Shown: one piece after another, positions 619 through 38,889 of the stretch
Layout of the letters: the number at the start of each line of letters is the position of its first letter
Position numbering within the stretch: the first letter of the stretch is position 1
Assembly (NCBI GenBank): GCA_946699065.1
Contig: CAMPDV010000017.1
Span: 372,001 to 436,000 of the forward strand
Direction: 5' to 3'
Source of the DNA: Loxodes magnus
Lineage: Eukaryota; Ciliophora; Karyorelictea; Loxodida; Loxodidae
Length of the DNA stretch: 64,000 nucleotides
Notes under the pieces: generated by a model
The model's database searches: none
Seen by the model: the letters and a program-made list of their open reading frames with translations, nothing else
Told to the model about the DNA's origin: nothing
Translations under genes and position numbers: made by a program

Positions 619-1887
619 ATGTGTAGCATATGTTACTAGGACAAGGATATAGTGAATCTAGCTTGCTAATGTAAGGCTTGTGAAACTTGCTTTGAAAACT
701 GGATTGATCAATAGCTGAATACTTCTTATAGACTTAAATTCAGATTGTTGTGTCCTAGTTCGAACCATATTCTAGTCAATAACGATTTTCCTCACTAAAT
801 TAAAGAAAGAATTGACTAAATTAACATCAAAATTTATCTTTAGAAAAGTTAAGATACAAGGATGTGTCCAGGTACTAATTGTGATTATGGTGGATGAATA
901 AGCTAGTAGTAATTAAAGTGTATTGATCCTTTTGTCTGTGAAAAGTGTGGAAAGAATTGGCAAGAAAAAACTTCCCAACCTTGATTATCCTCCTTATGAA
1001 AATTCTTTAACGATGATGAATTTTTATTTGAGGCTTACCAACAATTTTGCACTATGGCTTGCATAAATTGCAAAGTTCCTATTGAACGAGATTGGGGCTG
1101 TATTCACATAACATGCACCCAATGTCGCTACCAGTTCTGCTGACAGTGTAAGCAGAAGTGAGATGCCAATCATTTTTTCTAATGTTGGTAAGTATAGAAG
1201 GCAAGATTACAACAAGTTATTCTAATTTTATTGGCTTTCTTCCTACTCTTCTTTTAGTGCTAAGAGTTCATGCTTTTATGTATACAGAAGCTAGTTTTGC
1301 CATTTATTAGCTTTCTAATATTCTTTATGGTCTATGGAGTGATAAACATTATCAAAATGAGTTTGCTTCCTGATTCTAAAATATTTCAATCCCTTATAAT
1401 TCTCATTTTCCTACTAGTACTCTTTTTGACCCGATATTTCTGACTTTAAATCTACTACGAATTTAAGTGGATAATAGATCAAGAGCTACTATACATGGTC
1501 TCACTCCTTGGTACCTTTTTTATGTTGAAATACAATTGTCATTACTATAGAGAGTTGATTATTAAATAGGTATCAGTTGAGGATCAGAAGAGGAAAAAGG
1601 AATGAAGTAGATTTTGGCTTAAATAATCATTCTTTTTATTATCTTTATCATTAAATTATCTTCATTTTTCCCTTCGCTAAGGAGTTTATGCAAAGTATAG
1701 TAGAGCCAAGGGTGTAAAAGTGATAGCTTGGCTTATGGAGACTGACATTAAATACTTAATATTGGTGTTAAGTAGACTAGCTTGAAATGCACATTATGCA
1801 GCTTGAAGCACGTTTAAATGCAATAATATGAGCACTTGTTAATATAGCTATATATATCTCTGTGATTCTACAGAAATGTGGGAGTGA
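619..1887 (+). CDS. RBR-type E3 ubiquitin ligase with C-terminal membrane segments
   Basis: This encodes a RING1-IBR-RING2 (RBR) E3 ligase of about 422 residues; such enzymes accept ubiquitin on a RING2 cysteine before passing it to substrate. RING1 starts at once (MCSICYQD, then ACQCKACETCF and LLCP). The IBR follows (RMCPGTNCDYGG, FVCEKCGKNW). RING2 carries the catalytic Cys in WGCIHITC followed by QCRYQFCWQC. The Trp of FCWQC is a UGA codon at a position conserved in parkin-like RING2 domains, and several Gln are UAA or UAG. After about residue 200 come several hydrophobic helices, so the protein is probably an integral membrane ligase. The stop is taken as UGA at 1885, with a second in-frame UGA 12 nt later. 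The start is the ATG just before RING1; an upstream extension cannot be excluded. Domain assignment is firm; substrate and membrane are unknown. Confidence 0.85.
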
Positions 1888-1970
1888 GAGGCATATTGAT
1901 CATATTTAGTAAGCATTTTTGGTTAATTTATTTAAAATAAAGAATAGTAAAAGTTACCTGGTTAATTAAA

Positions 1971-3564
1971 ATGTCTTAAAAATAGGATTCAAGTGAAATT
2001 TAGTTGAACACTATTATCTAGGCATCTTAGAGCTAATAAAATGCTATTTTACAATCTTACTAACTTTCGACAGAAACCACTACATGGAATGTATCACCTC
2101 TGAGCACTATGACGCCATAGGATGTTAATAAACTTATTCTACAGTCTTTGAGAAATGGTGGTAACATGAGTAGTCAATAGAACGAGTAGAATCATACATA
2201 AGATTATGTTCTTTTTGATAGCACCACTAAGAAGGAAATATCAGATCTTAGCTCTTTATATTAATTTAGTAATATAAAAGTCATTTTCTAGCAATAATAG
2301 CCTAAACAGATAGAACAATAAATCATTAGTAATTTCGTCCCTTATAATGATTTAAAACCTAAAGCTCCAACTGTTCCCTTAGAAGCAACAAAGGATAATT
2401 AAATATTAAGCTGAACAATTCCAAGAGGTCCTCTTTCTTTTTACTACTAAAACAATAAAAGTCCAGAGTCACCACCTCCATGCTATCTACCTCTTTCATA
2501 TTTGATGTAACAGAAGAATGTAAATAAGTAAGATATTCTCCAAGGATTGGAACGATTAAAAGATGGAGGTTTAAAATGTGTGGACAAGTTAGCACTTAAA
2601 AAGTAATCTGGAGTTGCTCTCTCTGTTATGAAAACTGTGATGGCATTTATTATGAAAGGGAAACCTGTTGTAGGAGTCTCACTTCCAATTAGAATTTTTG
2701 AACCTCGAAGTACTATCGAGAGATTAGCTGATAGATGAAGTTATGCTCCTATCTATTTAAGTCAAGCTGCAAAGTGCTAGGATCCATTTGAAAGAATTAA
2801 ACTCGTGACTGCATTCGCAGTTTCTGGGCTTTATATGGGTATTAGATAATGGAAACCCTTCAATCCACTATTAGGAGAAACATTTGAAGGATTTTTCCCT
2901 GATGGTACCAAAGTATATGCTGAACATGTATCACATCATCCTCCTATTTCATGTTTCGAAGTGGAAGCAGATAATTATAAGTTCTACGGTCACTATGAGT
3001 ATACTGGAAAGTTTAGTGGTAATTCTTTATTAGTGGGGATGGATGGACCATTATGAATTTAATTCAAGGATGGAAGTAAAATTCTTCAAACTCTGCCAAC
3101 AGTCAAGCTTGGTGGTGTTATTCTTGGAACAAGAGATTTGAACTACGTAGGTAAATTCCTATATAGGTGATATGTAAATAAATGACTAAACAAATGGATT
3201 GTAGTGTAAATTAGTACTAGGAAAAAACAAAAACATGTCAAAAGCTTTAAACAAACAAAACTGATATGAAGACGACATCACTGGCTTTATAGTGAATACA
3301 AGAACCAATCAGCAATTAGCTTTAATTCAAGGAAACTGACTTCAAAATATTATCATTAATAACCAAGAATATTGAAACATAGATGCATAAAAACCGCTCC
3401 GACACTATCCAGTCAATAATCCTCTTCCTAGTGATTGCAGATATCGCGAAGACCTGATTTGACTAGCTTATGGTAATGAAAATCGAGCAGAAGCATGGAA
3501 ATAGAAAGTTGAGGAGCAACAGAGAAAAGATAGAAAGCTAAGAGATATCCCAAAAAAGCACTAA
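1971..3564 (+). CDS. oxysterol-binding protein-related protein (ORP), lipid transfer
   Basis: This is a lipid-transfer protein of the OSBP/ORP family, about 525 residues, with a Q-rich and P-rich N-terminal part and no PH domain that I can see. The ORD family signatures are present: KPFNPLLGETFEG, then AEHVSHHPPISC (the EQVSHHPP fingerprint), and near the C-terminus LPSDCRYREDLIWLAYG followed by a QRKDRKLR tail. A 16-nt intron (3151-3166, gtaa...atag) restores the frame between NYVG and DMQIND. Trp in DRWSYAP is a UGA codon. ORPs exchange sterols or phosphoinositides at membrane contacts. The end is odd: no in-frame UGA lies near the conserved C-terminus, and the next is roughly 300 nt on at 3862, after non-coding-looking sequence. 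UAA at 3562 is taken as the end, making this the one gene here that may stop at UAA. Confidence 0.87.
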
Positions 3565-4638
3565 ATCATTACTTAAAATATTTTTTGTAAAAATTATAAT
3601 TATAAAAGCATCTAAAATAGCATAGTCTATCACATTTTGCTACTTAATAACTAAAATAATTATTTAAATAATATTTTATAGAAGTAACTTATACGAAAGT
3701 AGACTAAAAGGTTTATCAAAACTTAATTGATAATAATATTTTTGGTTAATATATGGTAGATAGGTTCTATCGAACTACCTTAGTATTTATCATTACTTTA
3801 TATTTTAAATATTGATCTTAAGATTGTATTCCTGTTTATTATTCAGCCAAGTTACTTTAACTGATTACTAACTCATACTAAGTTATAACATGGTCTTTAA
3901 AGAAATGGTACAGAATACTTCTTATACCATATACTAAGAAAAAAAACGTGGTTACCAGATAGTTTTTAGGTTATTATCATCATGCTTGATTAATAAAGGC
4001 TTGCTTAAAATATACTAAATTTATAGTTTGCTAGTCTGCTTTTATTTGCTTTTTGACTAGTCATTTTAGATATTTTGTCTTTGTTTAGATTATTTATACT
4101 TAAATTAGTTAAAACTTACCTAACTTTAGATTCTGAAGGTACTTATTTACTCTCCTTAGATTATTCTAATAAAATAGATTGGAGGAAGAGTAGTAGAATA
4201 GTAGTCATAGGATAATACTAAGTTAAGCTAGATTTATTATCACAAATCTAACTTAGGACATCTAAATAAGCATAAGGATAAGAAAAAAGACATCATATTT
4301 TTAAGCTTAAATACCTTATAAAGCAACCTAGTAAATTAAAGGCTATTTAATTAAGTAAATGTAATTGCTTAGTATATAAGAAAGATTAAAGGAAATAGAT
4401 GTGAAAGAATGCTACTTTGTCAAACTTACATAGCAGGATTATTTTAATATGGTTCGTTTTTATTAAAATGGGGAGCTAAAATAGTCAGTCAATTGTAAGA
4501 AGACAGTCATTAAACAGAATTGAACTTAGTATAAGAATCTAAAACCACATTAATTGTTGGTTATAAAATTGTATATCTTTTATCCTATTTCGCATATAAG
4601 CTTCAAGAGTGGAATTATAGTTATATATTTATTGTTAA
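3565..4638. other. intergenic, one ambiguous open stretch
   Basis: AT-rich spacer without a recognised domain. Around 4090-4440 more than one frame stays open with protein-like composition (for example LDSEGTYLLSLDYSNK), but no start, domain or convincing end was found. I therefore do not call a gene. Confidence 0.4.
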
Positions 4639-6970: not shown

Positions 6971-9866
6971 ATGGTAGCTCGCTTACTAATTTTGCTGTCA
7001 ATGCTTTATTTTTCCTTAGCCCAAATTTAGACCGGAATGAAAGGCAATTGGGTTGATTGCACAGCAAAATATACTGAGTTAATTATCGGTGCCAAGAACC
7101 CGAAAGTGTAAACTGAAACTTAGAGATGGTGCTTTATTCCTGAAAAGCGTGCTGATTCTCAGTAGAATTAAACTGTTCTAAATGTGACGTAAAATATGAC
7201 CAGCATGATTAGATAGTTAGTAGATGATACAACTAATGAGCTTTAATTCGCGTTTAGTAACAGCGGAGATTTTCCAAGCTCAGAATAGTAAAACTTAGAC
7301 CTCCAGTTAGAATAAGTAAAGAATAGTGTAGTTTAATAGTATAAAGACTTGTAGCTACAATCTTCTAACTTGCTGGAATCATAGTAAAGGGAGTATATTT
7401 AAGATCTAGAAAAACTAGACTAAAATAATCAAGAAGAGAGCTAAGACCCTAATGCTTAACTAGAAGTATAGGAGACTCAGATAAATGATGAAGACTTCCA
7501 GCTAGTCACTGGTTTAAATTAGTTCGGCTATTCGAATTTATTCAGTTACTGCATGAGGTATTATAATGTTACTGTTTAGAATTATAATAAAGCTAAATAG
7601 GAAAGAAATGAAGCAGAAAGAATAAGAAGAAAAGCGGAAGAGTAAGAAAAATAAGCAAAGGCTCTTCTAAAATATGCTAATTAGACTGTAAAATTGTCTG
7701 AAAAAGTAGCTTATGATACTATAAATAACGCGCTTAATCAATATGAAAGCATAACAAAAAATGCTACAGCTAAGGCTAATTAAATTTTATAAAAGGCTAG
7801 AAAACAAGCAGATTAAATAATCTAGAAAGCACTTAACTAAGCAAGAAAGATTAATGAAACATTTTATAACTGTGTATTAGAAAAAAATAATACTTGGTAG
7901 TAGATTAATCAAACTGATTAACCTAGTGAGGGAAACATCTCCAATTAGACTCAGTAATAAAATACAACTTCAACAACGAACTAAACAATTACAAATTAGA
8001 CTCAAAGCTAAAATACTACATAAACTAATCAAACGACTTTACAATAAAATCAAACTTAATCTACTTAAACAAACTAAACAGAGCCAGGATAAACTAACTA
8101 AACATAACCAGGATAAACTAACTAAACAGAACCAGGATAAACTAACTAAACATAACCAGGATAAACTAACTAAACAGAACCAGGATAAACTAACTAAACA
8201 GAACCAGGATAAACTAACTAAACAGAACCAGGATAAACTAACTAAACATAACCAGGATAAACTAACTAAACAGAACCAGGATAAACTAACTAAACAGAAC
8301 CAGGATAAACTAACTAAACAGAACCAGGATAAACTAACTAAACAGAACCAGGATAAACTAACTAAACAGAACCAGGATAAACTAACTAAACAGAACCAGT
8401 ATAAACTAACTAAACAGAACCAGGATAAACAAGTTTAGATTTAACTCCTGATGAAACTCATTTTCATTATCACTACTAAATAAAAAAACATGAGCATAGA
8501 TTTTAATAGAACAATTTAAAGATTTAAGATCTTCTTCATTTACGATAAGCACGAAATATATTAGTAGGTATTCTTAAGGATTTTAATAAGGTAAATAAAC
8601 CTGAATCAAATTTCAAATTCGATCATTGTAAACCTGTTTGTAGTAGTTATAAAGAAGTGTATCACTATCATTATCACTGGCATCATGTTAATCATCATTA
8701 CGCGTTTTAAGTCATGAACAAAACTATTGTAATGCAACCTATTCAGCTAAGCACGTAAATGATTAAGCAACTAGATAAGTTTGATATGTAACAATTCTCT
8801 CAAAAGTAAAGAGAAGCGTAGTAAGCTCAGTAGAATTTTAAAACTTAAGAAGAAATTAAGACTTTTCTTTTTTCATGGAAACCAGCACTGAAGGAATAGA
8901 ACGGATCTGCAACTAACATTACAATACCCGTATAGCAACTAGATGGTTCTTTCTAGAAGATTGACGTGCCACTAATATTTTCTCAGGCTGAATTTCCAGG
9001 AAAAAACATAAATCATTATGTGAAAATTTACGCTGAATTTAATCATACATTTTTTATAAGAGCTAACTAAATAACAAATCACCAAAATACTCAAGAACGA
9101 GCATTTAAGATATAATATAAAAACTTTACTAAAGATAGTTAAAATGTAGTAGTTCATTATCATGTACATGATCATTTATACTATAACTTCCATAAAATTA
9201 TAGCTGCAAGAGATTAAGTAATAACAGAGAATATTTTCATTAACAAATCAACTTCCGAAGTTCGATAGTAAAGTAGTTACCCAATTGTTATGCCAGGTCT
9301 TTAGTAAGAGTAGGTTTTTTTAAATACATATTATGTTCCTGGGGATATTAATACCTCAAAGCATGTTGAGAACTAAAACAAGCATTTTCATTATAGCTAT
9401 AGTACTAAAGTCAACTTAATATTGGCAGATGCTTATGGCTGGTCTACGGGCCAGACTCAAAACAGCACTGTTTCTGCTTCTTTGGAAAATCAAAAAAATA
9501 CTGAAGAATTCTTCGATGTAATTAATTATTCTGCAAATATGACTGAAAATTAAACTCATTACCATTATGATTATACAGTTTGCTTGTGTAATATCACTGT
9601 TAACTTGAAGAATTTGAATTAAAAACCTCAAGTAGCAGCTTTCTAAACTGGTAAGTATTAATTTAGATTTTGAAGACGATGATCTAGTTTATTATGACTA
9701 TACAACTCAAGTTGAGTAAACTACTGGATTCTCATATTACTTATCTATAGCAGTCATTCTAATAATATTCGCCGTTATTACTCTCAAGTTGTTATAATAA
9801 AATAAAAGCAAACTTGAGAATAAAAGCGTTTATTACCACCTGCTTTAGATGAACTCAAAGGAGTGA
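6971..9866 (+). CDS. type I membrane protein: signal peptide, N-glycosylation repeats, histidine clusters
   Basis: The product is about 959 residues after removal of one 16-nt intron (9651-9666). It starts with a signal peptide (MVARLLILLSMLYFSLAQ). A Cys-containing N-terminal region and a Q/E/K-rich, probably coiled, segment (RNEAERIRRKAEEQEKQAKA) follow. Next come T/N/Q-rich sequence and about 14.7 copies of an octapeptide, TNQTEPGQ or TNQTQPGQ, each holding an N-Q-T sequon. The ectodomain continues for about 400 residues with repeated histidine strands: HFHYHYQ, VYHYHYHWHHVNHHY, VVHYHVHDHLYY, HFHYSY and THYHYDY. One membrane helix (YYLSIAVILIIFAVITLKLL) and a short basic tail end the protein at UGA 9864. 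It is probably a surface or secretory-pathway protein. The histidines suggest metal binding, which is inference. I do not recognise a family. Confidence 0.82.
8078..8430 (+). repeat. 24-bp tandem repeat, about 14.7 units, inside the 6971-9866 gene
   Basis: The unit is close to taaactaactaaacagaacc plus agga. It varies mainly at one codon, gaa versus taa, giving Glu or Gln in the gene frame, and the last full unit has a ggat-to-gtat change. Because 24 is a multiple of three, the array changes length without breaking the frame, as in mucin-like or surface-antigen repeats. There are no spacers, so it is not CRISPR. Confidence 0.95.
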
Positions 9867-10134
9867 TCTAACATTTACATTACAAACTAACATAATAGAT
9901 CTCAATTAAATAAAATAATCTATCAGAAATGGTTATAACATGCTATATCTAAATAACTGTATATTATCTATAACTATATACTCTTCTTATATAAGATGAT
10001 ATGACTTCAATATCATATCTTATTAATAAACTAAGAGTCTTAAATTAGTATTTTATCAGCTCTCTTTTCTATATTTGTCTCCTTTCAGAAACTTTTTTTA
10101 TTCCATATTTTAATGTTGTTTAAACTTTCAAACC

Positions 10135-10770: not shown

Positions 10771-11841
<1,071 letters not shown>

Positions 11842-15266: not shown

Positions 15267-18200
15267 ATGGGCTGCGTAGGTTCTTAAAAGAATCATAAGA
15301 GAATATAGCAAAACATAACCCCTGAATCTAACTTTTTACTAGATAAATGAACTAATAATCATGTCTAGATACTACATTAGAAGTTCAAGCAGTACTCTAA
15401 TAATAAGAATTAAGATCCTGAGATTAATTTCTAGGCATTCAGAAATATTTTCTCTGAGCTCTAAGGATTACCCAATGGTGTTGCTGAATCTGCTTTTCGT
15501 CTTTTTGATGTAAATAGAAATGGAAAAATAAACTTCAGGTAGTTTTGTGTAGCTCTTTCGATATGTTGCATGTCTTCTACTGAAGAAAGAATGAAATTTG
15601 TATTTGATATGTTTGATGCTAATTAGGATGGATTTTTATGCTAAAATGAGTTTCTACTTCTACTCGAGTCTACAATTAGCTCAATGAGGAAGTTTTCTCA
15701 AGGCCCTGGCTCCTAAAAAGATGAGAATTGAATATAGACCTAGCTAAACAATGTGCAATAAGGGAAGAAATAAATATCATATGAATAGTTCTTTAACTGA
15801 GCTGAGAAGAATCTTAATATACAATGCTTGCTGAATATGTTCGAGATACTACCAACTCCAGCTAAAGAGAGATAGATAATTAAACCTCTCATATAGTAGT
15901 CAGCTGAAAAGGCTTACTAGGTAGGAGAAACTTATTACATTCTACATCAAAAATGGTGAGAAGGCTGAAAAATGTACGTTAACTATGATGAAAATCAAAT
16001 AGAAATTGAATAGTCAGGAATTATGCTTGAAGAGAGAAAAACTGAAGGGACTAAAAGAAAAAACAGTCTTAAAATAAGTGGGAGATTGGGAGAACGTCCA
16101 ATATCAATAGATAACAAGGAACTAGAAGGAAGTATTAAAGGTGGTTTAAAGACCAATCTCATTCAGAATAATGATTATATTTTGATACCATAAAAAGCTT
16201 GGAAGCATTTATTCGAATGATATGGAGGAGGACCTGTTTTCAATCGCAAAGTAATTGAGCTTGGAACTGAAAAAAAGATGGCAATAGTCGAAATTCATCC
16301 CAAAATAATAAGAACACAACTTTGTGATTCTTAAGGAGAGCTTAAATAAGAAACTTAAAAAGTGATATTCATAAGCAAAGCCTATAAAATGCAATAAGTT
16401 AAAGATGATATTTTGAATAAATATAAAATAAAAGGAAGTGCAAATAACGTAAGAATTTGGCGAAAAAAACCAGGATATGAATGAAATCTAATTGATAACT
16501 TTCAGCAAACTGTTGAAGATTTAGGAGTAGAAACAAATGATTTGTTCATAATTGAAAAGCTTGAAGGAAAATAAGGACAAGATGGTTAATGGCCTAGAGA
16601 CAAAATAAAAGAAAAAACTAAAAAATGAAATGATTTTGTGGTCTTTGATTAAGTTGATGTCTGGGATCAAAATAAAGGTGAATGACGGCTGGCTACAATT
16701 ACAAATGTAAAGTAAGATTCAATAGATATTCAATTTGGAATAAATCAAAATTCATTATGCCTATTTAAGAATAGTGACTAAATCTAACCTCCTTTCAGTA
16801 AATCTGCTCCTATATAGCCTATTAGATAGAGAATAGAGTTCTCAAATGCTCACGGATTAATTAACCTTTCTAATACTTGCTATATGAATACAATTATTCA
16901 ATGTCTAGCTTGATCTCCTTTATTCAGATAATACTTCCTTTCAAAAAGGTACTAAATTGACCTAAATAAATAAAATAAGAACGGAACAAGAGGTAAATTA
17001 TGCGAAGAATTTGCCTCCCTTTTGTTTTAGCTAAGCAAGGAAGCTAAGAATGTTAATTAGCAGGAGCCAGTAAAGCCTGATCATCTTTACAAAGCAATAC
17101 AAACTTTCCTTCCTTAATTTGCAGATGAAGGTGAATAACACGATTGCTAAGAATTCTTCAATTTTTTTCTTGTTTTAATAGCAGAAGACTTAGCTAGAGT
17201 TTAGAATAAAAAGAACCCAAAGATATAGTTTGGTTAAGAAGCATCTCTTGAAAACTAAGATCAAGATAATTCATAAGGTTTTTAACAACCTCATGCAACT
17301 GAAGAATGGCTCAAGCTTTAATAAGAACATAGCTCTGTAATTAATGATTTGTTTGGAGGTGTCACAAAATCCACACTAACATGCTTAAATTGTAAGCATC
17401 AGATATAAAAGTTCGAAAAGTTCTACAGTATTTCGCTCCCACTTCCTGCTTCAACAGTTCTCTGTTTAAATATAACAGTAGTTAAAAGATTTGAAGGCTT
17501 ACCTGAAATATATGGGATAGAAATGTCGAAATATGGAAAATTATCAGAGCTTTACTTCAAAGTTTCAAATGTGACAGGACTATAAATAAGCAATTTGATC
17601 TTAGTTGAAGTCTATTTAAACAAGATTAACAGAATAATCCTCTATAATACTACTTAACATTTGCAAAACCTATATCTGCATCAAAATACAGAACTTTATG
17701 TATATGAAGTTATCTAAACGATAGAACAAGGAGTTAGTGACGGGAACAAAAATATTGAAGTTAATTATAAAAGTCTAAAAACTGATAAGAACTTCAGAGA
17801 TTTTGAAATAGGTGATAAAGTTGATGCTATGGATTATGAGGGATTATGATATCCAGGTACTATAGTTTAGATAGATCAGATGTAATAGTTTAATAATAAT
17901 TAATAATAGCCTACAAATTAACCATCTAGTATCCCTTAGTAAACTGGCATTTAAAAAATTAGCTTTTATCAGTAAAAGTTTAGAGTTAGAGTTCATTTTG
18001 ATGATTTCGATGGTAAGTGGTCAGAATGGTATGAGTCAGATAGCTAAAAACTCGAGCAGTTTGGAAAGATGACTTATTCCTCGTTTGATACAGTTCATCA
18101 TTTTAGACTAATTCAGAGGAATTTCAAGAATGAACTTAAAAATCCGACAGTAGTAGGAATTCCTCTTATTATAAGTATCGGAAGTTGGTATTCCTACAAA

Positions 18201-19094
18201 GATTTGTATAAAATAGTATTTAAGGCAATGCAGCGATTCCTCATAAATCCTTAATAGTTCTATAGTTAAGCTAATTAAGAATCATCAGAGCAATAAATCG
18301 TAAACTATCCTTTTGTTCTAAAATTACTCGATCTATCTGCAAGAAATTGCGGAGTATGTAACGGAAATGATAATTGCTTAGGATGTGAAATTCCAGATAT
18401 AGACACAAAAATGAAATTTTGTCTTGATACTTTAAGTAGAATGACTCTTGCAGTAGATTGAGATCCATCTATAGAAAGTTATGATGAATAGCTAATGAAG
18501 CCAAATATGCATGAGAGTGCTAAGGAACTTATAATAAAGAAAAGAGAACTTGAAGCTGGGCTTGATATTAATAAATGTTTTGATGTGTTTATGCAGAAAG
18601 AAAAAGTTGAATTAAAGTGTGAAAAATGCTAAAATAAAGATTGAGAAAAGTAGGATGAATTATGAAGACTTCCTGATATCCTGGTTATACATATAAAAAG
18701 ATTCCATTTCGAAAACGAATATCTTGACAAATTAGATCATTTAGTTCAGTTTCCTCTTACTGATTTAAATGTTTAACATTGAATTCACAGATAAAATGGT
18801 CAAAGACTTTCATAAATGGGATCTGAGGCGCTTAGTCATGTTTACGATTTATATGCCGTAGCGCATCATGTTGGTGTACTAGGAAGAGGACATTATTATG
18901 CTACTTGTAAAGTATGGCCTGAAAGTCTAGAAGAATCAAGCTATTAACTAGAAGAAAAATGAGCCAAATTTGATGATATGTCAGTTTCAGCGTGCTCAGA
19001 ATAAGATGTAGTAAGCAGAAATAGCTATTTACTTTTTTATAAGCGTAGAATCTTTGCCTCAAGCAATATTATCAATCTCATTCCTAACTTTTGA
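15267..19094 (+). CDS. USP32: ubiquitin carboxyl-terminal hydrolase, USP32-like (EF hands, DUSP, USP)
   Basis: An intron-free frame of 1275 residues ends at UGA 19092. It starts MGCVGS, a likely N-myristoylation and palmitoylation signal. EF-hand-like calcium loops follow (DVNRNGKINFRQF, DANQDGFLCQNEF). A DUSP domain comes next (QKWWEGWKMYVNY, AWKHLFEWYGGGPV), in which several conserved Trp are UGA. The USP catalytic domain has the Cys box NLSNTCYMNTIIQCL, the QHDCQEFF motif with both Gln as UAA, zinc-type CxxC pairs (LTCLNCKHQ, LKCEKCQNK), and the His box VLGRGHYYATCK followed by AKFDDMSV. Two Tudor-like barrels appear: VVFDQVDVWDQNKGEWRLAT before, and DKVDAMDYEGLWYPGTIV inside, the catalytic domain. 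EF-hand, DUSP and USP in this order is the USP32 layout; a membrane-bound, calcium-responsive deubiquitinase is inferred. Confidence 0.95.
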
Positions 19095-19747: not shown

Positions 19748-20518
19748 ATGGTAGAGCATACAATAAAGGATGGTCTTCTAAGAATCATTCTGAATAATTC
19801 TACAACTCTAAATGCTTTCACAACTGAAGTTTATGATTCTTTTTCCCAAATTTTATAGAAAGCAAACAAAGATGGAAGTGTTAAATGTATTCTAATCACC
19901 AGTAATAGTAATAACAAATCTAATTATTTTTCAAGTGGAAATGATTTTACTGATGCTTTTACCTAAGATAATAGAACGCATGAAGAGAGAGTGAAAAAGA
20001 ATCTAAGTTCTTTCAAGTAGTTTGTTGATGAGATGATAAAAAATGATATTTATACTGTTGTAGCTGTTAATGGAAATGCTGTTGGTATAGCAGTAACTTT
20101 TCTTGCTCTTTGTGATTATATCGTTATGGGAAAAAATTGCACATTCTGGTCACCTTTCTCACTTTTAGGTCTCAACGCAGAAGGTTGTAGCTCATATACT
20201 TTTCCTAGGATTTTTGGTAAGAAAGCGGCAAAGTTACTTATCCTAAACTAAATAATGACTGCTCAAGAAGCATTTGAATGCAATTATGTCAACGAGCTAG
20301 TTGATTAAAGTCAAGTAATAGAATAAGCAGAAAAAGTCTGTCGTACTGTGATGTCATTATCAGAAAGTTCCATTAGAACTTCAAAAAGACTTATGCAGGA
20401 GAGAACTAAGTTACTCGAAGTAAATGCAAATGAAATGGAATGTCTATACCAACTTTTCAATGATCCTGACACTATAATGCGTATTAAGAAGTTTTTCTTA
20501 AAAAGAGCACGTCTTTGA
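19748..20518 (+). CDS. ECI2: enoyl-CoA delta isomerase / hydratase, ECI2-like, probably peroxisomal
   Basis: An intron-free frame of 256 residues ends at UGA 20516. It is a crotonase-fold protein: FSSGNDFTDAF forms the first oxyanion-hole segment, AVNGNAVGIAVTFLALCDY the second, and LNAEGCSSYTFPRIFG carries the Glu expected for delta-3,delta-2-enoyl-CoA isomerases of the ECI2/PECI type. MTAQEAFECNYVNELVD is the usual following helix. Such enzymes shift double bonds so that unsaturated fatty acids can enter beta-oxidation. The C-terminus KRARL ends in A-R-L, which fits the PTS1 peroxisomal consensus [SAC][KRH][LM]. There is no N-terminal ACBP domain, unlike animal ECI2. Confidence 0.93.
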
Positions 20519-21545: not shown

Positions 21546-24500
21546 ATGTCTAAAGAATCATTCTTTTCTCGTTCAATTAAAACGTAATTCCTTAATATAG
21601 ATATGACAAGTGTATCAATCATGTGTTTAAGGCTTTAGGAAAACTTGTGCATAAGTTCTACTTTTTGTTACCTGTTCTGGTGTTTTCTAGCACTATAATT
21701 CTTGCAACTGGGCTACTTCGTATAGACACATATGATAAAGATTAGCAATTTGTTGACTCGAATAACTTTATAGAGGAAGGGAGAGATAAATATGATGATT
21801 ATTTCGATTAGCCATGAAGGAGTAATTTAATTTTCTTCCTGGACAAAAATAATACAAATGTAATAAGGAAAAAGCATCTGTAAGAAATACTCTGATTTAT
21901 GCAAAATATTACTGGCACTATTTATGAAAAGCCACTATTTAGTTTGAATCTTAATGGGAAAACTTTCTCCTATTAAGAATTATGCTATTTTCCTTATAAC
22001 GCGTATTCATGTGTATAACCTACAAATGTACTAACGATGTTTTTGACTTAGTAAGGAAATGACTTAGATACTATGGAGACAACCTAGCAAATAGTTGATA
22101 GAATAAATTAAGGAGTTCCACCTATTTATAGAAAGAAGCTTAATCAAACTGGTGTACCTGGATATATCTTTCCTCATGTAATTTTTGGTAGTAAAAATAC
22201 AAATCCTGGAAGAGTTTTCTTGGATTACTAAACTGGATAAAACAATATAAAGGAAGCATAAGGAACAGTTTGGGAAATACTTTTAAGAAATGATGACTAA
22301 TACGAAGATATTCTCCAAGATTACGAGGAAAAACTGGAAGATTTTACGGAATATTTCAATGATAAATCATAATATATAAATGCTTACGCGTTTACATGGG
22401 ATGGTCCTTCCAGAACTCTGGAAGATTATGCAGAAGATGATTATTATTTATTCGTAGCTGGTGTTATTATAACCGTTGTTGGAGGAGCAGTTTTTGGAAC
22501 TTTATTTTTCTATCCACTTTTTGGAAGAACAATATCAGTCTTTTGTGGTGCTCTGTCATGCGTTTGTGCTGTATTAGAAGGACTTGGCCTATTATGCTAT
22601 TCTGAGCTAAATTGAATGGCATACGTCCCTACACTATTTTTCACAGAGATATTACTTGGTTAGCATGATACTTACTAGTTAATGGCTGGCTTCTCTTATT
22701 ATGAAAAATATTTAAAAAGATAAAAAACTTATACCTCATTGAAGCATATCTAAAAGCTATTCAAGCATCAAGGTGTAGCTCTATTCTACTCAAACTGTGT
22801 CATTTTCCTCTGTTTTATGATATCAAGTGCGTATGTTGATGTGGGAGGATTGCGATCATTTATTATAAACATAGCAGTTATTTCAATCTTCAAAGCTATT
22901 AACCTGTTATTGTTGCTAGGCTCTTATTTTAGTGCTGAAGCTAGAAGAAACGAAAAAACTAATTTAAGTGGATGTTTAGGTATGTGCATTAAGAAGCCTT
23001 GCTGTGATAACATTTATAAGGAGAATGAAAGTTCAGGAAATGTTAGTATATTCTCCACTTCTTTTCGAGCATTTGGAGTTATAGCTGCTTCTTGGCCTTT
23101 TAAAATTTTGTGACTTTGTCTTCTCGCAGCTCTCTTTGCCGTTTCATTAGAATTACCATTCGGAGAGGATACTAAAATAGAGCTTAAAGGCTCATGAAGT
23201 TTTCCAGATGATGAGTATTATAGTGACGTAATAAGTATTTAAGAGGACAAAATAAACAATGGCTTTGCAGTAGGTTTCTGGTTCTCTGAAGTGAACTTTA
23301 AAAGTGCTAGCTTTTAGTAAAAAATTATTTAGTTTTAAGATTAAGTCTTCAAATGCCCGAAATGTGGAGTCTTTTATGATATGAAGTACCTGAGCTTTTA
23401 TTTATCTCTATGGTAATATGTATAAAAGGGTAACTGCAAAGTAGGTGCCTAAGTGGTGTAAATGGATTAAAGCGAAGGAACTCCTACAATTCCAGAAGAA
23501 TATTACGATCTTTGTGCTAATTAGTGGTGACTGGGATATCCATTAGCTTAATAAACAGCAATGGCTATAAAGTGATAGTGGGATGATTCTAAAGGATTTC
23601 CTATTATATACGATGCAGGCATATTAGTGAGATTTAAAATGAATCCAGTATCTGTTGATGATACGAAGGCAGTTAAAAAAGTAAAAGATATAGCAGATGA
23701 AATATTTGGAAGTGATTATTATGTTTTTTCGGTAATTTTTAATGCAGAAACCTTTAGGCCTAATTTCTCATTTATATTCATATGATGTAAACGATTCAGC
23801 CTATAATATACTTTCAGCCTGTGTTACAATAGCATGTATAACAACCTTATTTTTAATATCAAACCCACTAATAGGAATAGTGACAGCGGCAACATACGTT
23901 TTAAGCTTTATAGCTGCTTTTGCAAGTGTAACTTATACCTTCGAAGCCCACAAAAGCTTGAATTACTACTTTTTCTGTTAAGTGATAATAGCAATTCCAT
24001 GGTCTATTTCTTACAGTTTTTACGTAAGTATTTATTGCAGGCTGCTTATAATTTAAAGAAATCAGGTGAAAACAACACTGAACGAGTTATTAATGTATAC
24101 CAACGTTATGCATCTGCTACTTTCTTCCACTTGCTAGTCTCTGGAGCAGCTTTGATTCCCATCTTCTGCTGCTAAACATACGTTTTTCGCATATTTGCAG
24201 GTATCCATATATTCGTCTATCTGTATTCCTTCCTCTATGCCTATTTCTTTCTATGCTCTGTACTAACTTTATGCGAAAAAGCACATCCTTAAGATTATAA
24301 AAAGACGTTAAGTATTAATCAGAAAGTTTCTCCAGCTAATAAAGTTGACTATGAGAAAGTTCCACAAGAACAGAATTTTGATAAGTAAACAGCCAGAGAA
24401 GAAGTAAACATTGACTTCACTTAGAACTATCTAAAATCTACAAATATGACCAAAGTAGAAAAAGATAGTAAGATTGATACTGAACCTAACTAAGAATAGC

Positions 24501-25178
24501 ATGAAAACACTAAAAAGAAGGAAGAAGGAGTTATTGAATAAGAGCAAACTAAAGAAGCATAAAATCTATAAGCAATAGCAGGAGACACAAATTAAACAAA
24601 AAATGGATAGATTAAATAAGAAAAATAGAGAGCTTCTTAAGACTTTAAGAAAAAAGATAAAGAATATTAAAATGAAATTTTACCAGAGTAAAGCAACGAT
24701 AACAAGACTAAAAACGGTTCACCTTAAAAAATAGAAGAATTTAATACAAAAGAAATCCAAGGAAATTAGGAGAACTAGGGGACTTCAGAAACTTAAGGCT
24801 AAAAATTGCCTGAAATTAAATAAGGATCAGGTGAAGTATAGGATTTTAAAAAGGATATTGTTAATTTAGAAAGTAACCAGAAGCTAAAAGAAGAAAAACT
24901 ATTTGAAAAGAAAAATGGCATGTAATAACTGGAAGAATTGAATTAAAATTAAGAAAATTCTTAAGAGTAAGTTGCTGAAGAAAAAGCTCAAAGCGACTAG
25001 AAAGAAGATAAAGATGAACATAAGAAAGAAGAATAAAGCAAGAAAGATCTTAAAAGATTTTGATACTTATGAAGTAGCTGAAAACATTATAAGCAGGGGA
25101 TAAACAAATGAGCAAATATAAGAAAATTTATTCGAAAAAAAGAACTCTCCTATAGAAGAAGAACAAGGTGGTGGTTGA
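21546..25178 (+). CDS. Patched/NPC1-like RND-family membrane protein with sterol-sensing domain
   Basis: About 1,155-1,190 residues. Three introns are well supported: 21584-21600, 23732-23747 and 24024-24040 (17, 16, 17 nt). An N-terminal helix (FLLPVLVFSSTIILATGLL) leads to RIDTYDKDQQFVDSNN, as in ciliate and animal Patched-related proteins. A large luminal loop follows, then a sterol-sensing-like five-helix block (LFVAGVIITVVGGAVFGTLF, MAYVPTLFFTEILLGQHDTY, YSNCVIFLCFMISSAY), a second loop with Cys, and a second helix bundle from about 23780. The family moves sterols or other lipids. A K/E/Q-rich cytosolic tail of about 230 residues ends the protein. In the main frame the first UGA is at 25061. 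A clearly coding final segment (DFDTYEVAENII to EEEQGGG, UGA 25176) lies one nucleotide out of frame, so an unseen intron or a 1-nt error lies near 24970-25060. Confidence 0.85.
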
Positions 25179-26119: not shown

Positions 26120-27547
26120 TCAAAGAGTAAACAACCCCATGCTTTCGTATTTTTCTTTGCTTGCAGCTTCGAAATACTGATAGATAATAGTAACCGCTAA
26201 TAAAATTCCTGTTCCACTTCCAATCGCACCCATAAAGTCTGCTATTATTGTAAGCATTCCAATACACATTCCACCAAAAGCCGCTGCATTTGGAATATAT
26301 CTGTTCAACTCTTTTACCATTGAATGTTGTCTGTGTCCGTGAAGGAACATTTACTGGTCTCTTAGTTGTTTTGCAACATCCTTTGCGGAAGAGCCAGAAA
26401 CTTCAATCCAAGTTTTTGAAAATAGAGCACATGATAAAAGGACGAAAGAGATGTAGAATATAGCATGGAAAGGATCAGCAATGACTTCAGCCAGCTCTCT
26501 TGGTGGACTAATGTAATATGCTAAGCCTCCTACTGGAACACTTTAACCTGACATATCAATATCTTGCCATTGTCCTAACAGATTAATTAAGAAGTTTGTC
26601 TTATAGCGTTTGTATAAAATTTGGCTGAAAAAGTATAGATTTGATACGAGTGCTGTTTGAAGGATAATGGGAATGTTGGATGTATAGAAAAGTCTTATCG
26701 GGTAAGTTCCTTACTATCCTCTAACTTTCTGAGATCTTACAGGAAGATCCACTTTGAATCCTTAAAAGTATATAACGATTAAGAACACAAGTACAGTAGC
26801 CAAAAGATTTGTCACATTAGGAGCATGTGATCTATAAAACGCTTCTTAAATCGCAGTAGCTTTGTTAGGTCTTACGACTAATAGATGGAAAAGAGCAAGT
26901 ACAGCACCTTCAAATTCAGTTCCTCTTCCTGTACTGATTGTAGTTGGACTAAAAGCTCTCCAAACAATATTTTCGCATATATTAGTAGCAATAAAGAGTG
27001 AAATGCCACTGCCAAGTCCATAACCTTTTTGTAGGAATTCATCTAAAATAATTACAATAATTCCAGCAACAAACAACTAGGAGATTATCAGTAAAGCAGT
27101 TCCTGCTCCAATAACATTGACATCACCGTACATGCCACTCATTACATAGGCAACTGCTTCTCCAAGAGTAATAAGCATACCAAACAACTTTTAGGCCCCA
27201 TTAAAAAGCGCTCTATCCTCTTTTAGCGTTTGGTCCACGTCTATGATTTTACTACCTGCCAATAATTACATAACCATACCCGAAGTAACAATTGGACTGA
27301 TTCCAAGTTCCATAAGAGTACCACGATTACTTGCAAGGATAACTCTCATCCAGTAAAAAGGGTCTCCAGTAGATTGAGTATGAATACCATAAAGTGGTAT
27401 CTAACAGCAGACTAGGAAGATGAAGAGAGTAATTGCAGTCCACAGAATTTTGTTTCTAAATGAAATCTTTCTATCAGGAGTATCGACCTCAGGCAGAATG
27501 CATAAAGCAGGCCTAATTAAGGTTATGAACCTAACTTTCTCAGACAT
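26120..27547 (-). CDS. SEC61A: Sec61 alpha, ER protein translocation channel
   Basis: A 475-residue, intron-free protein, the length typical of Sec61 alpha. It is the ten-helix pore of the ER translocon and works with Sec61 beta and gamma and the ribosome. Family-defining stretches include [32 protein letters not shown]-like [68 protein letters not shown] and [20 protein letters not shown]. Several conserved Gln are UAA or UAG, for example both in RGQQGTYP. Trp codons here are largely UGG. It ends at UGA, directly followed by UAA. Confidence 0.97.
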
Positions 27548-34399: not shown

Positions 34400-35237
34400 T
34401 CATTCTTGACTTTCTAATTAATTTATCTTCACTAAGATCTTCCCAGTTTCTTTGATTTATTATTCTTATTATTTCAACAGATACTTCACATCATTTTCTT
34501 CTGTAAATATCTCCATGTTAGTTGCAATAGAGCCTCTAGATTTTTCTTATTTGCTATATCAAATTTTTTATTGAAATTCTAAAATTTTTAGCAATTCTTG
34601 TGCAAATGTCACTTACTCTAACAATAGTAGACCTCTTCCTATCTTATCTGATTAGATTATCGATTTATAACCTCTTTTTATTCTATCCTCATTTAATTTG
34701 CCAGATTAATTATGTTTATACTAATATTCTTTTGCTTAATAAATTCAACTCTTGCTTTATAAGATATCTCAAAGCCTTGCTGTTTCTTACCTATTTTAAG
34801 TTTAAATGTTCCAATATGTTTGGAGATCCCTTTTCTAATTAATGATTCTAATCTTTAAGTTATCTTGGTCAAGTTGCAATAAGTTTATTAATTCTTAACT
34901 TTCCTACTTAAGCACTTTAATCTCGTCTTGGAGATTGGATATTTCAAATAATAACTGTTAAATATTGATTTCCTTTTTAATTATATTTGATGGGGATACT
35001 TTTCCTGTTATTATACTTTACTCCTTTCTTTTTATTATTTTAGGAGGTGTTTATTAAAATTATTTGGTTCTTTATTAGTTTTATAAGTGGGGAGAAGAAA
35101 GCTCTTATTATTTTTTCTAAGTCTGCTTTTCTCTAAAGCTTTTTTCTCTTCTTTTCTCAAGAAAAACCCGACAACAATATTTTAGACTCCATTTTAACTT
35201 TTTTACCTCTACCTTTGTTTAGTATAAGTGCTTTCAT
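34400..35237 (-). CDS. coiled-coil protein, unknown
   Basis: Minus-strand gene of about 266 residues after removal of two introns, 35187-35206 (20 nt) and 35005-35021 (17 nt). The spliced length is an exact multiple of three and ends at a tandem UGA-UGA (34402-34397). The product starts MKALILNKGR and is basic at first (EKKALEKSRLRKNNKS). It then forms a coiled coil (LQDEIKVLKQESQELINLL, QEYQYKH region, LLLLEQVTFAQELLKILEF). A third, 15-nt intron-like sequence would be in frame whether or not it is spliced. No family is recognised. The frame choice rests on composition and on the fit of intron phases. Confidence 0.55.
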
Positions 35238-36201
35238 TTTTATATTATGCTTATCACTTTTTTACTTAATTCTTCTTTCTCTATACTTTTTCTTAAAAAT
35301 TAGATATGTTAGTTCTTGTCTATCTATTTTACACTTTTGCAGATCTTTTATTATTCCTTTAATATATTTTACCTATTCTCATTTTTTTAATTGATAATTT
35401 AAATTTAAAGAATTAAAATAGTTGTTCAATAATCGAATAGAAAAATGAAACCATATTTTAATAATGTGATTAAATGAAATAAAATCTAAGTAAATGAAAA
35501 GAGAAAACTTGCAATCTTTCAGAGAGAATAAGAGAACTCATGACGTATATTGAATAAATGAATTTAGCTTATTCTAAAAATCATTTTAGCAATTTTATTA
35601 AATTTAAGATCTCTTTCCTAACTTCTATGTTTTCTTCAAAGTTATAATTGAATATCACGAGATTTTTATACTCTTTTTCAATTATCTATACTTTTTTACT
35701 TGAAATCACAATAAAAAGCGTTAGATACTCTACTTAAATTATTTCTTCATTAATCTAAAATTGTTATACTTTTAATTATATGGAAATATTCTAAAATATT
35801 ATATTATTTTTTCATTTCTTTTATCTTATTATTTTTCTTGTTTTTCTTTAAAAAAATAGTTTACTTTTTTGATTATTTTTATTTATTAGATGCACTTATG
35901 CAGTACATATTTTTGACACAAAAGCATAAATTAAATTAACGAAAAGGGGATAAATCCTCATTTATATATCTTAATTAATGAGAAAATATTTTTCAGTGCC
36001 AATTCGGTTATTAAACGTGATTATAATCCTAGAGGATGAAATAAATAAATTAAAAATAAATAAGATAAATATATATAATTCTTCATTAAATACTAATTAT
36101 ACTAATAAAGCTTTACTATTTATTAGCATTATTCAAATTAAAAATTAAAAACATTTAATATTAATAATAATATTAATTTCTAGTTTTCCGTTTTAGGGAT
36201 T
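35238..36201. other. AT-rich intergenic region
   Basis: No gene or repeat was recognised. It forms the left edge of the repeat-rich half of the window. Confidence 0.5.
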
Positions 36202-37122
36202 TCAAGCCCCGTCAGGAGGACAGCAGTTCATGCTCCCTGCTGTTAAATATAAATGTTTGGGACGTCCGATTATAGCGGGATTGGGAACTCGGGTTTCTCC
36301 GGGTTTTCCTTCCTTTTACTTGATGTGGTTCCATCTTGATCTTGTATATTGAACCATCCGGGTTGCAATACATTCTTTTCATTCTTGCTTCTTCTTTTTT
36401 TTCTTTTGTTGTTCTTTTATCCAAAAGTTTCTTTATTTCTATTAGAATTTCTAACACTTCTGATAAAAATGTCATACACTTCCACAGCAGAAACATTTCT
36501 TTTTTATTTTGAATTATTTTCCTTGATTTGTTTGCTCTTTCTAGGCTTCGATTTCCATTTGTATGGCTCCATTTTCGCTTTACTCTTTCTTAAAAGTTTT
36601 CAATTTCTCTTATACTTTTCCGAGTCTGTTATCCAGTTCAGTCTGTTTCTAAAGCTAATTTTAGGATTCGTTAGTCTGCCTTTGTGAGATATGCCAAAAG
36701 GCGTTAAGATCTCTTTTCTAGGACATAAGTCTTGACTCAATTCCTTCTGCTAGGTCTAGCTTTGCCATCAGCATATCATTGTCCTTCTTCAATCTCTTGA
36801 CCTCTTCCTGGAGGTTCAGTACCACTTTGATGAGCTACTCCATGCTCATCTGGCCAGAAGAGTTGAACTCTGATATCTCCTGGTGGAGAACAGACTTCAT
36901 CTGTTTCCTCGGTTTCTCGCTTGAGGTTGGAGTTTCTGTGTGTATATTCTTCAAGGTTGGCTTTCGTTCGTTTTGTTAGATTCCAAGTTGTTAGTTCAGT
37001 GTTGGTTAAGGTTGTGATAGAGAAGATTGTTAAGATTATTAAGACTTGGTTTCTTGCTTCCTCTCTTCCTTTTTGGCTTAGGAAGAGGTTGTATAAAAGC
37101 CTGACTTGAAACCTTCAACCAT
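36202..37122 (-). CDS. retroelement gag-like ORF1 with zinc knuckle
   Basis: An intact minus-strand frame of 306 residues from ATG 37122 to UGA 36204. The N-terminus MVEGFKSGFYTTSS matches the ORF1 start of the LINE in this window (MVSFKKGFYTTSS). A K/E/Q/S-rich linker follows, then a coiled coil (MEQLIKVVLNLQEEVKRLKK, LMAKLDLAEGIESRL, LDNRLGKVQEKLKTFKKEQ). A CCHC knuckle (CFCCGSVWHFYQKC, C-x2-C-x4-H-x4-C, its Trp a UGA) and a basic tail complete it. Coiled coil plus knuckle is the usual layout of an RNA-binding ORF1 of a non-LTR element. No reverse transcriptase follows, so this is an orphan ORF1 or a 3'-shortened copy. GC content is higher than in its surroundings. The 5' end lies 8 bp from the left boundary of the duplicated block. 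Confidence 0.8.
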
Positions 37123-37371
37123 TTTTTTCAATTTAAGAATCAAAATAATTAAATTAAATTAACTTTATACCTTAAAATAAATAATAGATTGAATAGTATA
37201 GTAATAATTAAATTTTTTCTTAGCTATGCAGCTTATTAATATCTTAGGACATTAAATTAATTAAATGAATTAAATGAATTAAAGTAAATTAAACTATTAA
37301 TGCTTTATCAAAATTAGAGAAATAAGTATAAAAGGCTTAATTTAATTTATTATTTTCTTATTTTTTATAAT

Positions 37372-38889
37372 ATGGAGATAGCGTAGGAAGGCAATCTTTT
37401 ATGTGATCTCTGTAAAAAGGATTTCAATATTAGTAGTAACTTACCTAAATTACTAGATTGTGGAAATAATCTTTGTCTTCAATGTTGCTATTTATATCAA
37501 TATACAAACTAAGTTATGTGTCCTATTGATTTCTATATGTTCTATGGATAAGTTGAATAGCTAAAAACAAATCCCATTATTTTGCATAAAATAACAACTA
37601 GAATAAAAAATAAAGAAAATTAAGCTTAATTATAGACATAATTTACTTAGCTCTTATAAAGAATAAAATAAAACTAAAATATTAAAACTATAACAGTCTA
37701 AGAAGAAATTAGTGCTAATAACCAGTTATAAGCAAGTAAAGAAGTATTAAATAAAACAATCCATAACAAAAAATTAACATTTATAAGTTACTTTGCATAG
37801 AAAATCTAAGAATATTCTAATAGCAAAATTACTTTATCTATAAACTTATAAAATCAATTTAAAGATAAAGAAAACTTTAGCAGATATAATATTTCATAAT
37901 TATGGAATTTTTATAAGTAAGTACAAAGCTAGATGTCTAAGATGTAAGTAAATAGTAAGTTTTAATGAGAAAGAGTAATAAGATAGTAATTATGAGATTT
38001 TAAAAAAGTAGAAATGCTGATGATTATACGTGTAAATACCTAAGGATAAAGGAAAGAAATAAGATATTAAAATATTAAATAAATTTAGCAAGAAAGTAGA
38101 ATAAAGTAGGAGCCAATAATGGAATAGAAGTAGATTTAAAAAATAAAAACAGTAGAAGAACATTATTTAGAAACAGTAAATACGTAAAATAAAGATTGAG
38201 AACTATATGATTTGTTTATTTTAAGATAAGATTTAGAAGAAAATATAAACTAAGGAGATTATTTAACTGATCAGTTATTTATGTTAATTTATTTTTATTT
38301 CACTAGTGATTGAGAGTCAAAAGAAGCTATTGAAAATAAAGCATAGATAGATTAAATGTAGAGAGATTAGGTATAATTTCCATCTCATATAGTGGAATTA
38401 GAGTTAAGCAAAGATACTTCTGAAAATGAAACATGATAGCCAAAAGGATAAAAATGTTTTTTAACTTTTAAAGTAAATAAAGAATGTCATCTTTATGGCT
38501 TAGGTTTTCGTCCTACTAATTAATAAGGCAAAGAAGCTTTTTTAACTTAAATTTAATTATATAAAGAAAAATCGGCAAAAAATTTGAATTCCAGTAATTT
38601 AATTTTAAATCTTAACGAAACAAAAAGAATTACTTATAAAAATAAAATGAACTGAAGTGTCCATATATTTGAAAAAGATATTGCAAACATAATTCCTTAA
38701 TAGTAATACACTTTAGCCATCACAATTTAAGGAGATAATTTATGATGTGGTAACAAAGAAACTTTCTATTCAACTGCTAGTGAAAAAGGCTTAACTATAT
38801 GAACTTTTCCAACTGAGGATTGCATAGATAATAACTAATCATTTTATAAGTAAGGTCCACTTGTTGATATAATTTTTAGATTAATATGA
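37372..38889 (+). CDS. RING-like plus PHR-domain protein, copy A
   Basis: An intron-free frame of 505 residues ends at UGA 38887. The N-terminus is a RING-like zinc finger: LLCDLCKKDF, LLDCGNNLCLQCC, then MCPIDF. The usual zinc-binding His of the CGHxxC motif is Asn here and the last Cys is Asp, so one site may be weak. The middle is K/Q/N-rich with coiled-coil character. The C-terminal 150 residues form a PHR domain as in MYCBP2/PHR1 and BTBD proteins: FLTFKVNKECHLYGLGFRPT, NLWCGNKETFYSTASEKGLT, IWTFPTEDC, and a closing GPLVDIIFRLI. A RING-PHR protein is expected to act as an E3 ligase or its adaptor; that is inference. It sits upstream of the LINE and is carried with it in both copies. Confidence 0.82.

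Follow-up and report, generated by a model that had tools for sequence, protein, structure and literature searches.

The window, that is, the whole 64,000-nucleotide stretch of Loxodes magnus DNA analysed here, contains protein-coding genes on both strands, together with conserved motifs in which UAA, UAG and UGA stand at Gln and Trp positions (Table 1). Pfam coverage takes in all of the window but 39.5-64 kb and, on the minus strand, 1-13 and 15.7-22 kb. Neither a tRNA called by ARAGORN nor an Rfam match at the gathering threshold was found in the window.

Table 1. Genes, gene ends and motifs located in the window
Feature	Position	Strand	Evidence or codons
RBR (RING-IBR-RING) gene	619-1605	plus	IBR_1 at 1051-1167, E 6.6e-09; UGA end at 1603-1605
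FCWQC motif (RBR)	1135-1149	plus	TGA = Trp
Oxysterol-binding protein domain	2658-3158	plus	PF01237, E 3.5e-38; absent from the initial annotation
Inferred 16-nt intron GTAAGTATTAATTTAG, repeat/surface protein gene	9651-9666	plus	from sequence only
UGA stop of repeat/surface protein gene after splicing	9864-9866	plus	inferred intron
C2H2 zinc-finger (YY1-like) gene, 3' part	11372-11841	plus	UGA at 11839-11841; intervening intron possible
RFTQSSNL motif (zinc finger)	11396-11419	plus	TAG
Ubiquitin protease (EF-hand, DUSP and USP)	15480-19094	plus	PF06337, E 3.7e-17; PF00443, E 3.1e-51; USP15 alignment
WWEGW motif (DUSP)	15954-15968	plus	TGA twice
FEWYGGG motif (DUSP)	16212-16232	plus	TGA
QHDCQEF motif (USP)	17136-17156	plus	TAA..TAA
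ECI2-like enoyl-CoA isomerase	19748-20518	plus	C-terminus ARL, then UGA at 20516-20518
UGA closing multi-span membrane protein frame	23783-23785	plus	no homologue
UGA closing acidic coiled-coil frame	25061-25063	plus	no homologue
Sec61 alpha	26120-27547	minus	UGA stop at 26120-26122, within 2 residues of human C-terminus
RGQQGTYP motif (Sec61)	26699-26722	minus	TAG TAA = Gln Gln
GDWN motif, LINE endonuclease-like, first copy	42202-42213	plus	TGA = Trp; family name from the initial annotation
GDWN motif, LINE endonuclease-like, second copy	60589-60600		TGA = Trp; family name from the initial annotation

Gene ends and codon meaning in the window

UGA had been proposed to close the genes of the window. 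This holds for the RBR, zinc-finger, USP, ECI2-like, Sec61 and surface-protein genes and for the membrane and coiled-coil frames, the pairing of the last two with the names given earlier being a guess. Pfam is blank (E 0.01) at 30.0-39.5 kb on the plus strand and 28.6-38.6 kb on the minus strand, so a RING or PHR domain in that region is unsupported. Among the window genes, homologues fix the C-terminus of Sec61 and ECI2 only. The ARL end of the ECI2-like protein is presumably a peroxisomal, PTS1-like one, and the Pfam ECH_1 match extends 2 codons beyond its UGA. The USP stop (UGA, 19092-19094) lies 15 codons past the last residue aligned with USP15, and the end of the membrane frame lacks an independent fix because it has no homologue. 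The surface-protein end depends on an inferred intron: if it is missed, the frame ends at the UGA at 9671, which is out of frame after its removal, and a transmembrane C-terminus appears once it is removed. At 16 nt, this intron is barely within the published L. magnus range, in which the mode is 17 nt, lengths below 16 nt are negligible and most introns measure up to 25 nt (PMC11441545).

Seven motifs had been quoted as carrying reassigned codons, and each was located with the codons claimed (7 of 7). In alignments with the solved homologues USP15, ECI2 and Sec61, UAR stood opposite Gln at 12 of 35 positions (background 3.3%, p 7e-10) and UGA opposite Trp at 2 of 5 (background 1.0%, p 9e-4); for the comparison codons of the same alignments, CAR was opposite Gln at 6 of 24 and UGG opposite Trp at 4 of 6. 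Within the USP gene, positions 15480-19046 have 1189 codons, including 49 TAA, 23 TAG and 15 TGA. The karyorelict Loxodes code (UAR as Gln, UGA as Trp and stop) had thus been named rightly, and it holds in other gene families genome-wide. As a test set for the UGA stop signal, for which it had been recommended, the window alone is too small, and a larger sample yielded no local rule.

Gene ends and sense codons across the genome

That sample comprised 98 loci, 58 Ras and 40 tubulin, which were top-ranking rather than random and were taken mostly from the tops of lists (best 150 of 721 Ras candidates and best 150 of 216 tubulin candidates). A C-terminus could be assigned in 84 of the 98 (UGA 80, UAA 4, UAG 0), a count that is not blind because motifs were picked with the translations already read and those with TGA behind them took precedence over those with TAA or TAG. 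The UGA ends represent 74 distinct 3' contexts, and the 33 tubulin UGA ends make up 27 of these. Left out were 6 of the 40 tubulin loci (L092, L103, L107, L108, L111 and L113; L103 is without UGA at the expected end) and 8 of the 58 Ras loci (L125, L128, L135, L149, L157, L161, L162 and L167), the first four of which end in Tyr-UGA or Arg-UGA with the prenylation motif absent. In a blind Cys-(x)-Cys scan of the 58 Ras loci, TGA came directly after the motif or at most two codons later in 45 cases, where chance would give 2.4. In addition, an Hsp90-like tail, judged by eye, reads MEEVD and then UGA.

The same codons occur at conserved sense positions. Among 37 matches to the WDTAGQE-type motif in 40 full Ras loci, Trp was UGG in 25 and UGA in 12, while Gln was UAA in 26, UAG in 8, CAA in 2 and CAG in 1 (UAR in 34 of 37). 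Similarly, of 27 matches to the pattern of the tubulin LHWYTGEGMDE region from 40 loci, 17 had UGA for Trp and 10 had UGG. Some Ras genes have UAA both as Gln and as the assigned stop. In the last 20 codons of 19 Ras genes, which are paralogues, UGA was seen at 0 of 380 codons versus 15 of 3413 upstream, a difference that is not significant (p 0.39). For Gln codons in this segment, UAA made up 6 of 39 versus 96 of 219 upstream (p 6e-4), and UAG 19 of 39 versus 54 of 219.

tRNAs, eRF1 and selenocysteine

The tRNA-Trp(CCA) has an anticodon stem of 4 bp, with 27A and 43C unpaired. Genome-wide there were 128 matches, or about a hundred or more copies, and 99 among the 100 matches listed were identical across 30 matched bases. 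A check of tRNAs with UCA, UUA and CUA anticodons had been suggested. A Gln-like tRNA with a UUA anticodon was found on a contig of only ~2.8 kb, so its membership of this nucleus is uncertain. The genome search for a tRNA-Trp with a UCA anticodon gave 0 matches to a strict pattern, and the anticodon-pattern matches examined held no CUA tRNA-Gln. The CUA-anticodon matches L064 and L065 are tRNA-Lys-like sequence in which ARAGORN calls no tRNA.

The eRF1 sequence, another suggested check, has Ala in both copies at the position of human Ser70, the site changed in Blastocrithidia, and sense UGA is absent from both genes. A third eRF1-family match (C2, L033, 47.8 bits) is partial and below the cut-off. 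A short-stem tRNA-Trp(CCA), with no UCA form under the strict pattern, and a changed eRF1 Ser70 are both present here; they are the two components of UGA suppression in Blastocrithidia, yet UGA remains the main stop in this genome. Ala at this position may weaken UGA recognition by Loxodes eRF1; single eRF1 changes have been argued not to track ciliate codes (PMC4967479).

UGA in this genome very probably also encodes selenocysteine as a third meaning, as judged from sequence. Both tRNA-Sec and SepSecS were found in the genome, and the three thioredoxin reductase (TrxR) ends that were read have Cys-UGA-Gly-UGA, with the first UGA as candidate Sec, the stop UGA two codons later and more in-frame UGAs upstream. 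UGA as Sec is already in print for Parduczia and Condylostoma.

Interpretation and comparison with known codes

We consider it highly probable that the window is L. magnus macronuclear DNA under the karyorelict code (NCBI table 27), with UGA as Trp inside genes and as the main stop at their ends. UAA and UAG would be read as Gln and UGA as Trp within genes, and near the 3' end termination would beat UGA decoding, since the 3' UTRs are very short and the release factors are aided by poly(A)-bound proteins. The last ~20 codons would be kept free of UGA and UAA. UTR length, depletion before stops and the poly(A)-proximity model are taken from the literature, the model from PMC4967479 and PMC11441545. 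In selenoprotein genes, tRNA-Sec would give UGA its third reading, and we infer that the changed eRF1 and tRNA-Trp compete for UGA. Codon meanings, stop positions, tRNA and eRF1 sequences, tRNA-Sec and the TrxR ends were established here by homology.

As a supplement to this explanation, the evidence leans slightly towards UAA retaining a minor stop role while serving as Gln elsewhere in the same gene. UAA stands at 4 of the 84 gene ends, and therefore UGA may not be the sole stop. A small minority of UAA stops is reportedly allowed in the abstract of Seah 2022. Ras L143 ends in SCNC-UAA where its relative L129 has NCNC-UGA, and the pair shows pN 0.205 versus pS 0.768, with only 3 of 40 residues alike past the stop. 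Two further Ras genes end in CLIF-UAA (L139) and KCCN-UAA (L156), and in the tubulins EELL is followed by UAA in L096 but by UGA in L114. Within L143 and L139 themselves, the Gln of AGQE is UAA. Further, UAA and not UAG is scarce before stops in the present data, and the legend of the published Fig. 3C reports the same. However, all four cases were chosen by eye and L096 is possibly decayed, while the blind Cys-motif scan gave TAA 12 times against 8.5 expected, which is no evident enrichment, and PMC11441545 names UGA as the only stop codon. MEEVD ends were rejected as a test of UAA (41 places, 26 with UGA and 15 with UAA, and 13 in a backward control), and their UAA set was dropped because the three UAA places read proved to be lookalikes in genes other than heat-shock genes.

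It is improbable that local sequence marks UGA stops, whether by a given next base or by a close second in-frame UGA. Tubulin stops favour G as the next base (15 of 27 distinct contexts), but this hint of a +4 G rule is not upheld by the bases after Ras stops (A 18, T 15, G 11, C 3; n=47) and after sense UGAs (A 34, G 24, T 16, C 5; n=79), the latter counts resting on a coding model's segmentation of the window. A second UGA does lie three codons on in both eRF1 genes and in all three TrxR ends read, whereas within 5 codons it was seen in only 1 of 47 Ras stops (3 and 6 in shifted frames) and 1 of 27 tubulin contexts (0 and 2 in shifted frames). Tandem UGA back-up stops, for which an excess is reported in other ciliates (PMC6879139), are thus rejected as a general rule, with no excess over shifted frames. 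A code like that of Condylostoma (table 28), in which UAA, UAG and UGA would all be ordinary stops, is very improbable, since the handful of possible UAA ends would suit it but UGA 80, UAA 4 and UAG 0 (n=84) refute it as the main code. A pseudogene reading of the in-frame stops, under either a standard code or one that stops at UGA only, has next to no probability: retroelement copies are present in the window and the published genome is repeat-rich (PMC11441545), but conserved Gln positions of tubulin, Ras, eRF1, Sec61 and USP genes are occupied by UAA and UAG, those of conserved Trp in the tubulin, Ras and USP genes by UGA, and the frames run through.

Within the karyorelict code, we tentatively suggest, just short of favouring it, that one nuclear genome gives UGA three meanings and UAA two, even in single genes, and that the Ser70 change weakens but does not abolish UGA termination, which message position would rescue. 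Where a code reserves no codon for stopping, stop versus sense would be a competition that context decides.

The code of L. magnus is already published, and the macronuclear genome paper states it (PMC11441545). What is added here are gene ends fixed by homology, strong indications that Loxodes uses selenocysteine, and the finding that a species still stopping at UGA combines a short-stem tRNA-Trp with a changed eRF1 Ser70. The karyorelict code as known from Parduczia sp. and Loxodes shares UAR as Gln, UGA as Trp and stop, UAA depletion before stops and tiny introns. The main code is the same, whereas the 4 of 84 UAA ends fall outside the 'only stop' UGA of PMC11441545. Condylostoma magnum (table 28), according to PMC4967479, shares 64 sense codons, context-dependent stops and UGA triality with Sec, and its nucleus is likewise without a tRNA-Trp(UCA) found. 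Three stop codons are in use there, whereas here it is nearly always UGA, with UAA at 4 and UAG at 0 of 84 ends. Amoebophrya sp. ex Karlodinium veneficum, unlike Loxodes a syndinian dinoflagellate, has the short stem in 1 of 7 predicted tRNA-Trp and an eRF1 with RIKS (PMC12005148 and PMC6394959). Blastocrithidia (PMC12153298) shares the tRNA-Trp(CCA) with a 4-bp stem, a changed eRF1 Ser70, UGA as Trp and a tRNA-Sec that is kept. Blastocrithidia differs in reading UAR as Glu, stopping at UAA and having Gly at Ser70, whereas here UAR lies opposite Gln, UGA is the main stop (80 of 84 ends) and Ser70 is Ala. Loxodes and Blastocrithidia thus make a useful pair for asking about the role of eRF1 Ser70.

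Codon meaning and gene ends in the window

The initial annotation had read UAA and UAG at conserved Gln positions and UGA at conserved Trp positions, and all seven motifs that it quoted (QHDCQEF, RFTQSSNL, RGQQGTYP, WWEGW, FEWYGGG, FCWQC and GDWN) were found with these codons. With all three codons taken as sense, window genes matched Pfam domains of several families (table below). Printed alignments with USP15, with ECI2 and with mammalian Sec61 put Gln opposite UAR in 12 of 35 columns and Trp opposite UGA in 2 of 5, both far above background. The code finding is real and was correctly interpreted. Pfam returned no match on the plus strand at 30.0-39.5 kb or on the minus strand at 28.6-38.6 kb.

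Features located in the window (window positions) and on other contigs of the assembly
Feature	Location	Remark
IBR and C2H2 zinc finger	window	Pfam match
Oxysterol-binding protein domain	2658-3158	Pfam match; absent from the initial gene list
Putative 16-nt intron, surface protein gene	9651-9666	
EF-hand, DUSP, UCH	window	Pfam match
Ubiquitin protease gene	15480-19094	EF-hands, DUSP domain, USP domain
ECH_1	window	Pfam match
ECI2 UGA stop	20516-20518	end set by homologues
SecY and plug domain	window	Pfam match
Sec61 UGA stop	26120-26122	end set by homologues
LINE-like copies	~37.5-45.6 kb; 55.9-64 kb	
tRNA-Trp(CCA) tandem arrays	C67, 482-491 kb (L034-L063); C148, 155-169 kb	
eRF1 genes	C196	two (L031, L032)

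The accompanying claim that the genes close at UGA stood for eight window frames with an in-frame UGA end, and among these homologues fix the end for Sec61 and ECI2. The Sec61 stop lies 21 residues past the last aligned residue, compared with 23 in a solved chain, and the ECI2 C-terminus is ARL, which is compatible with a PTS1 signal. In the surface protein gene, removal of the putative intron adds a transmembrane tail and places the UGA at 9671 out of frame, an example of the hazard of intron-blind frame reading. The length of this putative intron is consistent with the intron lengths of Loxodes magnus (mode 17) in the excerpted text of PMC11441545.

The USP domain of the ubiquitin protease is interrupted by approximately 370 residues between two aligned halves. 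Elsewhere, the GDWN and YADD motifs, like the open-frame lists, recur at a constant spacing of 18,387 bases, which points to a LINE-like element present in two very similar copies.

Stop codon use in the Ras and tubulin families

The Ras family search of the assembly gave at least 150 scored matches; the whole locus was read for the best 40 and a short tail for 18 of those next. The Tubulin_C search scored 150 of 216 candidates, and the ends of 40 were read. A C-terminus was assigned in 84 of the 98 loci read, with UGA as the stop in 80, UAA in 4 and UAG in none. This homology-fixed estimate of stop use is a new addition. The stop position is clear in 47 Ras genes because a prenylation motif precedes the UGA. 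In WDTAGQE-type motifs, Trp was encoded by UGG (25) or UGA (12), and Gln by UAA (26), UAG (8), CAA (2) or CAG (1). When the three frames were scanned blind for Cys-(x)-Cys motifs, TGA turned up 45 times (2.4 expected), TAA 12 times (8.5 expected) and TAG 4 times (2.8 expected). The tubulins form a very large family (L076-L115 among them), in which the conserved Trp is UGA in divergent beta-type copies and UGG in the canonical copies read.

The stop is not marked by the base that follows it (A 18, T 15, G 11, C 3 in Ras genes; A 34, G 24, T 16, C 5 after sense UGA in predicted coding segments of the window), with the G preference of tubulins (15 of 27) as the exception. No excess of a second in-frame UGA was found behind the stop in Ras and tubulin genes. 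In 19 Ras genes, the UAA share of Gln codons fell from 96/219 upstream to 6/39 among the final 20 codons (p 6e-4), and the UAG share rose from 54/219 to 19/39, a pattern that matches the published Fig. 3C legend. The loss of UGA near the same ends (15/3413 to 0/380 codons) was not significant. Because these genes are paralogues, all of these p values err on the optimistic side. Nearness to poly(A) has been proposed as a stop mechanism (PMC4967479 and PMC11441545, in excerpt).

UAA is possibly a minor stop. The Ras gene L143 ends in SCNC-UAA and its relative L129 in NCNC-UGA; the pair is strongly constrained (pN 0.205, pS 0.768) but shows no resemblance beyond the stop (3 of 40 residues alike). 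UAA also stands at the ends of L139 (CLIF), L156 (KCCN) and the tubulin L096 (EELL), and it encodes the Gln of AGQE in both L143 and L139. These cases were, however, selected by eye, and the TAA result of the blind scan is flat. The abstract of Seah 2022 reportedly notes that a small minority of stops are UAA. The candidate UAA stops found here are an addition to the known code. Separately, ATGGAAGAAGTTGATTAA occurs at at least 13 places (C544, C811, C939 and others); the one read, on C544, is not an Hsp end, and the sequence is perhaps part of a repeat.

Decoding components and comparison with known systems

The tRNA-Trp(CCA) pattern gave 128 matches, and 99 of the 100 listed were identical across 30 matched bases. 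An A/C mismatch at position 27-43 shortens the anticodon stem to 4 bp. The arrays are long, with periods of approximately 187 and 241 bases. A strict version of the pattern for the UCA form had no matches, and a Gln-like tRNA with a UUA anticodon lies on a contig of approximately 2.8 kb (L066). Both eRF1 genes carry RAQNIKS in place of TASNIKS and Phe in place of the Tyr of YxCxxxF. Opposite human Ser70 they have Ala (alignment of L031; L032 has the same residues there).

Sequence signs of selenocysteine use point to a third meaning of UGA in Loxodes, again an addition. Three tRNA-Sec genes with UCA anticodons (73.9, 70.5 and 63.5 bits; cut-off 47) lie on contigs 1.4 and 2.0 Mb long, and SepSecS is present in one copy. 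Thioredoxin reductase (TrxR) gave 10 matches, 5 of full length; all three ends read among these are Cys-UGA-Gly-UGA, with UGA again three codons on. Each of the three contains 3 to 5 in-frame UGAs, one being the predicted Sec codon. A second in-frame UGA three codons past the stop was seen in the eRF1 genes as well as in these TrxR genes (L181-L183), and the codons between the two UGAs differ among the TrxR copies.

The code itself is already known, and the genome is almost certainly a published one, the Loxodes magnus macronuclear assembly, in which UGA is stop or Trp (PMC11441545, excerpt). The short-stem tRNA in Loxodes was likewise reported previously (PMC13092985 and PMC12005148, excerpts). 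For Parduczia and Condylostoma, UGA "codon triality" has already been described and illustrated by thioredoxin reductase (PMC4967479, excerpt). No mention of Ser70 in Loxodes was found in the literature searched, outside which the two most relevant papers lay, and the changed eRF1 Ser70 beside a short-stem tRNA-Trp would be a new addition. In Blastocrithidia, Ser70Gly together with a short-stem tRNA leads to more UGA readthrough (PMC12153298, excerpt).
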